Positions 24,939-56,642 of a stretch of 64,000 nt of DNA are shown piece after piece; the stretch's first letter is position 1, and each line of letters starts with the position of its first letter. The position numbers were made by a program, and so were the translations under genes. This DNA is from Flavobacteriales bacterium (GTDB lineage: Bacteria > Bacteroidota > Bacteroidia > Flavobacteriales_D > Sanyastnellaceae), in assembly GCA_022447625.1 (NCBI GenBank), contig JAKVAX010000018.1, positions 1-64,000 of the forward strand, in the 5' to 3' direction. The notes under the pieces were generated by a model. That model did not search any database. It was not told the DNA's origin and saw only the letters and a list, made by a program, of their open reading frames with translations.

Positions 24939-25541
24939 TTATGAGTTGTTCTGATAGCGCCAGATGTATCTACAGGCTATACTTCGATAAGGTCGCCAAG
25001 GCTCAGCTACTAGTTCAAGCTTCTTCTTGACTCCACGTTCTTTGGGGGCCAGTCCATACAGGTTGCACATACCCATTTTGATTCCCAGATCATCGAGAGG
25101 AAGGATGTCGAGTCTACGCAAATCAAACATCAAGAACATCTGAACCGTCAATACACCAAGTCCTTTTATGGAGGTGAGTTCTTTGATGATTTCTTCATCT
25201 GAACCACTCCATAGACTTGGGTCATTCTTTGCCGGATCAGAGAAGTAGCGAGCCAGATCGCGCATGTAACTCGTTTTCTGGTGGCTTAGGCCAATACCTC
25301 TCAGTTCGTCGTCTGTTACTTTGTCCAGGGATTCCGGCGTTAGCCGAAGTTCTAACAGTTCACTGAAGCGCTTGTAAATCGTATCAGCAGCCTTTACCGA
25401 AAGCTGTTGCCCGACAATGGCTTTGCTCAATGATTCAAAAGGACCACTGTAAATCGGCCATGACAATTCATCGTCATGAATGATGCTGGCAAGCTTGCTA
25501 TCTGCAGATTTGAGATGGTTTTTGATCGATGAGATTTCCAT
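24939..25541 (-). CDS. DNA-3-methyladenine glycosylase II (AlkA-like)
   Basis: The protein has 200 residues. It belongs to the HhH-GPD superfamily: FESLSKAIVGQQLSVKAADTI in the first half, the helix-hairpin-helix LTSIKGLGVLTVQMFL, then the aspartate region ILPLDDLGI where the catalytic Asp is expected, and AEPWRPYRSIACRYIW. It removes alkylated bases to start base-excision repair. No iron-sulfur cysteines are present, as usual for AlkA. It converges on rpoD. Confidence 0.88.
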   Translation of the reverse strand: MEISSIKNHLKSADSKLASIIHDDELSWPIYSGPFESLSKAIVGQQLSVKAADTIYKRFSELLELRLTPESLDKVTDDELRGIGLSHQKTSYMRDLARYFSDPAKNDPSLWSGSDEEIIKELTSIKGLGVLTVQMFLMFDLRRLDILPLDDLGIKMGMCNLYGLAPKERGVKKKLELVAEPWRPYRSIACRYIWRYQNNS

Positions 25542-55119: not shown

Positions 55120-55998
55120 CTAGTCGACAAAAGACCTTTGAAAGGCCGCACTTAGCAGTTCCACTGCTTTGTTGCGGTCTTTTTCGTTGAGCCCAGCAGG
55201 TGGACCGTACGGCGTAGTATTCACGTCAATGATATAGATCTTACCATCGCCCTGATCTCGAATGACATCAAGCTCACAGAATTCTGCGCCCATCGCCTCT
55301 GTGAACTGGCCAATGTGCGCTATTTCGCTTGCTGAGAATACCTCTCTTAGATCATGAAGACTTGAATGCGTCACTTCATTCGTGAATCGCTGATCCCAAG
55401 ACTTAAACTTGTGGTAAGCCAACACAGCCTTAAATCCAATAACAGGCACGCGAATATCAACGGCTTGACCATCTTCGGTTTTGTTGCTGAGTACTTTTTG
55501 GTAGATGTATCCTTCCTCAGTGCTTGATATCGGACACTCTATATACTTGCCGTCGTGTTTTGCGTTGTCGTCACTTTTCATGACCCCAGTTCCACTAAAA
55601 CTCAATGGATCAATAAAGGTTCCGTAGCCCAGAAGGTCCTGATGAACACTTTCGACTGCGTCCTTAGAGATGTCTTTGCAGTGTTCGTTGACCCGTTTTG
55701 GATGTTTCATCCAACCATCGATTTGCCATTCTTTCTTCGTTTGATCATGGAAGAAGAGAAGAATATCCGCACTCGACATGGCCTTGTTGGTCAGTCTGAA
55801 GTGAAGGTGGTCTGCAATCTTGTGAATCGTAGTCCGTTTGCTGGGGAAATCAGGCCAGGTAACAATAACCGGTAGTTCACCCTTGTGGAATTTGCGGTGC
55901 TTTCGATCTTTCGACCATGAGCGAAAGTCTTTCGAAATTCGCTCGAAGAGCGGCATGTTCGAACGATAGTTGTTTCGAAGCCCCTTCTTCATTTTCAT
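55120..55998 (-). CDS. ATP-grasp-like protein, unknown substrate
   Basis: The protein has 292 residues from the ATG at 55998, which overlaps the nth stop as ATGA. A GTG at 56007 would add three residues. The first 60 residues are basic. The C-terminal half ends with CELDVIRDQGDGKIYIIDVNTTPYGPP, which has the acidic and Asn metal-binding arrangement of ATP-grasp enzymes, and lysines earlier (EGYIYQKVL) fit nucleotide binding. It may add an amino acid or peptide to an unknown substrate. No close family is recognised. Confidence 0.6.
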   Translation of the reverse strand: MKMKKGLRNNYRSNMPLFERISKDFRSWSKDRKHRKFHKGELPVIVTWPDFPSKRTTIHKIADHLHFRLTNKAMSSADILLFFHDQTKKEWQIDGWMKHPKRVNEHCKDISKDAVESVHQDLLGYGTFIDPLSFSGTGVMKSDDNAKHDGKYIECPISSTEEGYIYQKVLSNKTEDGQAVDIRVPVIGFKAVLAYHKFKSWDQRFTNEVTHSSLHDLREVFSASEIAHIGQFTEAMGAEFCELDVIRDQGDGKIYIIDVNTTPYGPPAGLNEKDRNKAVELLSAAFQRSFVD

Positions 55999-56642
55999 TT
56001 CGTCCACTTTTTGATCTCTGACTTGCGTCCGATAGTAGAAGTGATGAAGTCTTTTTCAAGCTTCAGACCGCGTGCAGGAGAGAACTCTCTTCCGTAGAAA
56101 ATGATCTGAAGGTGGAGTGAGTTCCACTTTTCCTCTGGGAACAGGCGCTTAGCGTCTTTCTCTGTCTGATCAACGTTCTTACCAGTAGTTAGTCCCCAGC
56201 GGTACATCAAACGGTGAATATGCGTATCAACAGGAAATGCAGGAACACCGAAGGCTTGAGACATGACTACACTGGCCGTTTTGTGACCTACCCCAGGAAG
56301 CTCCTCGAGTTCTTCAAAAGTTTGAGGTACTTCTCCGTTGTGCTTGTTCATGATGATTTCACTCAGACCATAGATAGCCTTTGATTTTGCCGGAGACAAG
56401 CCACAGGGTTTGATGATCTCTCTGATTTCTTCTACCGTCAAGTCGAGCATGTCTTTGGGGTTATCAGCTCGTTCGAAGAGATTAGGAGTAATTAAGTTGA
56501 CACGTTCATCAGTGCACTGCGCACTCAATAGAACCGCCACCAATAAGGTGTACGGGTCTTTATGGTCAAGTGGAATGGGAGTTTCCGGATATAGCTTTTC
56601 CAGGCTTTCAATTACAAAAGTGGCTTTCTCTTTCTTCGTCAT
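55995..56642 (-). CDS. nth: Endonuclease III without the iron-sulfur loop
   Basis: The protein has 215 residues. The HhH-GPD core is complete: LLSAQCTDERVNLITP, the hairpin LEELPGVGHKTASVV with the catalytic Lys, and FPVDTHIHRL with the catalytic Asp. In the usual enzyme the C-terminus holds C-x6-C-x2-C-x5-C for a [4Fe-4S] cluster. Here YGREFSPARGLKLEKDFITS has none of the four cysteines. It still should be a pyrimidine-damage glycosylase/lyase, but of the cluster-free kind. It is co-translated with the genes on both sides. Confidence 0.88.
   Translation of the reverse strand: MTKKEKATFVIESLEKLYPETPIPLDHKDPYTLLVAVLLSAQCTDERVNLITPNLFERADNPKDMLDLTVEEIREIIKPCGLSPAKSKAIYGLSEIIMNKHNGEVPQTFEELEELPGVGHKTASVVMSQAFGVPAFPVDTHIHRLMYRWGLTTGKNVDQTEKDAKRLFPEEKWNSLHLQIIFYGREFSPARGLKLEKDFITSTIGRKSEIKKWTK

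Follow-up and report, generated by a model that had tools for sequence, protein, structure and literature searches.

In endonuclease III (Nth) enzymes, a C-terminal loop encloses a [4Fe-4S] cluster and brings basic side chains to the DNA backbone. Yeast Ntg1 is an Nth homologue that lacks the cluster, and it exists beside the clustered Ntg2. Nth is described as an iron-sulfur enzyme in reviews (PMC8307549, PMC9266487), and where two others list iron-sulfur proteins, Ntg2 is named and Ntg1 is left out (PMC8514734, PMC9624242). What the cluster does in Nth is described as still disputed in PMC9268735. In the account given there, a Cys199Ser variant of Deinococcus radiodurans EndoIII2 was about as active as the wild type but unstable, its authors suggested a scaffold role for the cluster, and cluster-less MutY obtained by refolding was inactive. 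Clusterless MutY is also known from nature: PDB entry 8uuc is titled as a bacterial clusterless MutYX, and Trasvina-Arenas 2016 (FEBS J) is cited on the subject in PMC11078426.

Here we describe an nth gene of a Flavobacteriales bacterium whose product lacks every cluster ligand, together with its distribution, its relatives and the selection acting on it. The gene lies in a 64,000-nucleotide stretch of DNA, called the window below.

Gene identity and predicted fold

Open reading frame and profile searches place an intact reading frame on the minus strand at 55995-56642, the location given by the first-pass annotation; it begins with ATG and encodes a 215-residue endonuclease III homologue with no iron-sulfur ligands. 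The protein scores 218.7 bits against TIGR01083, the NCBIfam endonuclease III equivalog (cut-off 211.7), and fails the E. coli-type model NF007978 (141.4 against a cut-off of 405). Among Pfam domains, PF00730 (HhH-GPD, 83.6 bits, cut-off 26.2) assigns it to the HhH-GPD superfamily, and PF00633 (HHH) is matched at 32 bits (cut-off 24). A MutY identity was considered and rejected: TIGR01084 gave 37.1 bits where 286.5 are required, and NUDIX is absent among the Pfam hits. The catalytic residues had been described as intact, and they are: Lys121 in the helix-hairpin-helix (GVGHKT; codon 56280..56282, minus strand) and Asp139 (VDTHI; codon 56226..56228, minus strand), the residues expected of an Nth, are invariant across an alignment of 60 rows.

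The closest solved proteins are the endonuclease III structures 1p59 and 1orn, the latter from B. stearothermophilus. An AlphaFold2 model, for which the input was 60 sequences (the window protein and survey loci), has a mean pLDDT of 94.2, and about 93 over residues 181-200; it contains helices at 199-204 and 207-214 and superposes on 1orn over 212 of 215 residues (Z 27.5, rmsd 1.7). An overall Nth fold is thereby predicted, and the confidence of the model makes that fold plausible, which does not imply stability.

It is conceivable that the enzyme, while catalytically competent, has shifted its substrate, for example to abasic sites or another lesion, with the cluster being dispensable for the new job. 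The subfamily to which the protein belongs shares no more than about 40% identity with canonical Bacteroidia Nth and has GVGHKT for GVGRKT in the hairpin. However, the protein passes the Nth equivalog model, the His-containing hairpin is common to the aligned cluster-type members and so does not track the loss, and standard substrates would otherwise be left uncovered, as no other Nth or H2TH protein was found (see below). We regard a change of substrate as unlikely.

A 295-residue open reading frame at 55120-56007, also on the minus strand, shares 13 bases with the end of nth. It has no Pfam hit, and its NCBIfam match to an ATP-grasp-type ligase is weak (21.6 against 350 bits).

The C-terminal loop

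The loop of the window protein, YGREFSPARGLKLEKDFITSTIGRKSEIKKWTK, contains no cysteine. The ligand positions, taken from the alignment, are 188, 193, 198 and 201, and they are occupied by S188, L193, D198 and T201; the codons for residues 188-201 (SPARGLKLEKDFIT), which replace the metal site, lie at 56040..56081 on the minus strand. The sole cysteines of the protein, C43 and C80, are both outside the loop, and the [4Fe-4S] motif C-x6-C-x2-C-x5-C is not present. PF10576 (Pfam EndIII_4Fe-2S) was not reported for the protein at a maximum E of 10; a canonical Bacteroidota Nth, used as positive control, was reported at 28.9 bits (cut-off 20.5), and the MutY of the same genome was weakly reported at 15.9 bits, below the cut-off. 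Because both the C-x6-C-x2-C-x5-C motif and PF10576 are missing, we class the protein, on its sequence, as a clusterless Nth-type HhH-GPD enzyme and not as an iron-sulfur endonuclease III.

The reading frame, the loop alignment and the PF10576 result thus bear out the first-pass annotation's claim that the four cluster cysteines are missing. That all four are gone holds in the sense that none stands at a ligand site; as an amendment, relative to the nearest cluster-type relatives the residues replaced are three Cys and one His. The cluster-type members of the subfamily show about 60-78% identity with the window protein, share its LHLQII-(F/Y)-GRE...AR context and have Cys, Cys or His, Cys and Cys at 188, 193, 198 and 201. 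Read against the canonical motif, they would have lost the last Cys and acquired instead a ligand candidate between the canonical first and second Cys. PF10576 does not report this C-x4-(C/H)-x4-C-x2-C loop in three examples (L081, L089 and L116). An AlphaFold2 model of one of them, the Cys-His-Cys-Cys (CHCC) member L081, has a mean pLDDT of 92.5 and matches endonuclease III 2abk with a Z of 25.8. The remodelled site is possibly that of a His-ligated [4Fe-4S] cluster or of zinc.

The clusterless loops have a character of their own. Among 177 of them, A190 and R191 are retained without exception; position 1 is Ser in 163 and still Cys in 11, position 2 most often holds W, L, P or A, Asp stands at the third ligand position in 136, and Thr at the fourth in 98. 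Loop length is conserved in most copies, those of the Weeksellaceae type being one or two residues shorter. In family f7 (10 genomes) the substitutions are visible in an otherwise recognisable loop (...GFDPQKSPIDLTIGRKSLFK versus ...GHDPMECPICSKYGRKSLFK). D198, which in the model stands immediately ahead of the 199-204 helix, may cap that helix.

Acidic residues can bind metals, and the Asp at loop position 10 in 136 of the 177 clusterless loops raises the question of whether metal is still held by other residues (C43, C80, His, Asp198 and neighbours). Against this, only two Cys are left and neither is within the loop, positions 2 and 4 usually carry residues that do not bind metal (W, L, P or T, for example), and the shorter loop of the Weeksellaceae type lacks the pattern. 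We consider residual metal binding very unlikely.

Distribution of loop types

Loops were counted once per genome wherever possible and recounted over all surveys. In the window's own family, 96 of 114 genomes gave a match at E up to 1e-10, and every readable loop (94 of 94) was clusterless: 88 lacked all four ligand Cys and six had one. One genome of this family (G061) carries two clusterless copies, L024 and L211, on different contigs. A C-terminal sequencing or assembly error was mentioned as a possibility in the first-pass annotation, and nothing else favours one; the identical loop in a separate genome at 98% identity (L005), the same loop in another at 81%, and the clusterless state of all 94 readable family members leave that explanation with a negligible probability.

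The survey of the order gave a match in 59 of 60 genomes at E up to 1e-15, with 55 clusterless loops and four of the form C-x4-H-x4-C-x2-C. Within the order, CHCC loops belong to families f102 (one genome) and f103 (three genomes), so the loss is not order-wide. In the class survey, for which genomes were drawn evenly, matches were found in 288 of 296 genomes and were clearly bimodal. The window's subfamily was represented there by 93 genomes (57-98% identity, and the window itself), and all 93 loops were read: 35 were clusterless and 58 had C-x4-H-x4-C-x2-C. This motif, seen in L081:4001-4633 and the 58 class-survey genomes, replaces the canonical cluster motif across the Nth subfamily. The distant Bacteroidia copies, at about 40% identity and below, had the canonical four-Cys motif in 15 of the 16 read; one distant copy (L196) terminates after the second Cys.

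The first-pass annotation had treated the gene as a single odd case, which it is not: all surveys together yielded 32 families with subfamily loops read, and the clusterless loop is the ordinary form in 14 of these, the other 18 being CHCC and none mixed. Further afield, in Bdellovibrionota (the phylum of an Oligoflexia record), the subfamily was present in 43 of 144 genomes, and 20 of these 43 matches were read, all with C-x4-C-x4-C-x2-C. A set of 80 named loci comprised 56 clusterless, 12 CHCC and 10 CCCC loops, one with two Cys and one cut off; clusterless loci in this set include Flavobacterium, Nonlabens, Capnocytophaga, Chryseobacterium, Kaistella, Epilithonimonas and Fluviicola. NCBI titles map imperfectly to loop type, as a locus titled Flavobacteriales (L078) is of the CHCC type.

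An unclassified metagenome-assembled genome (L102) has an Nth with only the first and third Cys (C, F, C and T at the four positions). It possibly represents an intermediate or a separate loss.

Origin of the clusterless loop

Quick trees were built on 184 core columns. When the search was free, the clusterless rows were scattered, requiring nine changes among 171 rows, seven among 91 and 12 among 108, and well-supported branches were few. When the clusterless rows were held as one clade, the approximately unbiased (AU) test gave p 0.904 for 44 clusterless of 91 rows and p 0.97 for 59 clusterless of 108 rows, the held tree being higher by 69.45 and 114.26 log units, respectively; that held trees outscore free ones points to inadequate free searches and to weak trees. 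These AU tests were run without a decoy group, and the trees are without a reliable root; near-identical rows were thinned, and long or odd ones (L115, L189, L102, L197, L198 and L155) were excluded from the 91- and 108-row trees.

A single origin of the clusterless loop is a possibility with which the AU tests are compatible. The CHCC families of the window's own order, f102 and f103, either branched before the loss or reflect several losses or gene exchange. From the loops themselves, it seems that the site was first remodelled, with a ligand arising between the old first and second Cys, and then erased by substitution.

Selective constraint

Compared with its nearest genome (L005, 98% identical), nth shows 50 synonymous and 4 non-synonymous differences, and over the last 28 codons the counts are 6 and 0. 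For residues 185-201, pN/pS was 0.065 against 0.067 in the core, calculated over 52 close clusterless pairs that share branches and are not independent; for the whole tail from residue 185 it was 0.151 against 0.063 in the core (74 pairs). The Asp motif was found in all 313 distinct proteins of the subfamily and the Lys motif in all but two (311); of these two, one is a fragment of 78 residues, and the other does have the Lys, within the sequence PATGHKTA. By this pattern of substitution, the clusterless Nth is under selection and maintained, and its loop at 185-201 evolves as slowly as the core and is not free to drift.

The complete loss of cluster ligands, and the poor tolerance of canonical enzymes for ligand mutations (as told in PMC9268735), could suggest a decaying or inactive remnant. 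That interpretation is contradicted by the substitution pattern, with strong purifying selection in both core and loop, by the intact frame, and by the matches in 59 of 60 order-survey genomes at E up to 1e-15; we hold it to be extremely unlikely.

Other glycosylases in the genome and its relatives

An HhH-GPD search of the window assembly (G000; 3.9 Mb, 76 contigs, 99.8% complete) returned three genes: the clusterless Nth, a MutY and a 200-residue HhH glycosylase. A second, clustered Nth, whose presence the first-pass annotation had left as a question, was not found by this search, and a distant four-Cys paralogue occurs in some relatives. A search for H2TH, the Fpg/Nei domain, gave no match in the 99.8% complete assembly; the same search, as a control, was positive in 9 of 14 well-known genomes. 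Within the scope of the HhH-GPD and H2TH searches, no candidate for an oxidised-pyrimidine glycosylase other than the clusterless Nth emerged in this genome. The 200-residue protein is encoded in the window at 24939-25541 on the minus strand and is probably of the DNA-3-methyladenine type; its gene lies immediately downstream of a putative sigma-70-type factor gene, which is on the opposite strand.

The MutY gene of this genome, on contig C67, encodes CKPQKPLCNTCPWENDC, the full cluster motif with four Cys kept. MutY scored above its model cut-off in 40 of 40 genomes of the window's order, and the 30 of these loci that were read all have four Cys, with the spacing C-x6-C-x2-C-x5-C in 28 and x5 for x6 in L342 and L344. 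A loss of the cluster shared with MutY is thereby ruled out in the 30 loci read.

A second Nth-like gene with four Cys, at 26-35% identity, was found in 11 of 13 tested relatives, a set chosen to contain genomes with two matches and genomes for comparison; the five genomes of genus g81 (family f53) that were tested all have it. The distant second protein carries the motifs SAQDSD...GRKSANVI...DLHV (L213-L221 and L223, from families f53, f17 and others). In the window's own family, none of the 96 genomes with a match showed a four-Cys second Nth-like gene at E up to 1e-10.

Discussion

We think it probable, from sequence and model together, that the product of the window gene is active on oxidised pyrimidines as a bifunctional glycosylase/AP lyase and works with no metal cluster. 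Its Lys121 and Asp139 would act as they do in other Nth enzymes, and the C-terminal DNA-contacting loop, with A190-R191 retained, would be held by protein contacts that have replaced the cluster as scaffold. The proposed contacts involve a small residue, usually Ser, where the first Cys stood; at the second position, a residue that tends to be bulky or non-polar; an Asp that possibly caps the next short helix; and, at the fourth position, usually Thr. The route to such a loop would have led through relatives with C-x4-(C or H)-x4-C-x2-C and not from the canonical C-x6-C-x2-C-x5-C directly.

The first-pass annotation held that the enzyme would work without its cluster. The absence of ligands is read from the gene, and activity is well supported, if indirectly, because the catalytic residues are kept, purifying selection is evident, and neither a second Nth nor an H2TH protein was found. 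A metal-free scaffold of protein contacts would agree with the behaviour of the EndoIII2 Cys199Ser variant (as given in PMC9268735); since refolded cluster-less MutY was inactive, the activity of the window protein is not to be taken for granted. Without a cluster the enzyme could not take part in redox signalling through a cluster of its own, and the cluster Cys are retained in the MutY of that cell.

For the wider lineage, a large one including Flavobacteriaceae, Weeksellaceae and numerous relatives, we see an even chance that a clusterless Nth repairs oxidised pyrimidines and arose stepwise via the C-x4-(C/H)-x4-C-x2-C subfamily. If this is true, Nth does not need a redox-active cluster to search for damage in living cells, and its metal site is open to exchange and to later loss. 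One subfamily, at 60-80% identity, offers Nth enzymes with four Cys, with three Cys plus a His, and with no ligand at all, so the disputed role of the cluster, as redox damage sensor or as scaffold, becomes testable with natural variants, whose direct comparison separates catalysis and stability from redox chemistry. A caution for annotation also follows, as TIGR01083 calls the window protein endonuclease III despite the missing cluster.

In the open-licence literature searched, we found neither a clusterless Nth from Bacteroidota nor the C-x4-(C/H)-x4-C-x2-C Nth loop reported. Canonical Nth (E. coli 2abk; 1orn/1p59) resembles the window protein in its HhH-GPD fold, its catalytic Lys and Asp and its length, with about 38-39% identity in the structural alignment, and differs in having the C-x6-C-x2-C-x5-C motif. 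The CHCC and CCCC members of the subfamily, unlike the window protein, keep four candidate metal ligands. MutYX is, like the window protein, a natural case of [4Fe-4S] cluster loss in an HhH-GPD glycosylase, but it is an adenine glycosylase and not an Nth. Its structure 8uuc aligns with the window model over 188 residues (Z 18.2), and the alignment stops at model residue 194, a range suggesting that nothing in MutYX corresponds to the loop retained here. Ntg1, in turn, is eukaryotic and has a clustered paralogue alongside, whereas none was found in the window genome. Loss of the cluster in HhH-GPD enzymes is therefore precedented, in MutY and in Ntg1, and the Nth variant described here appears, within the literature searched, to be new.
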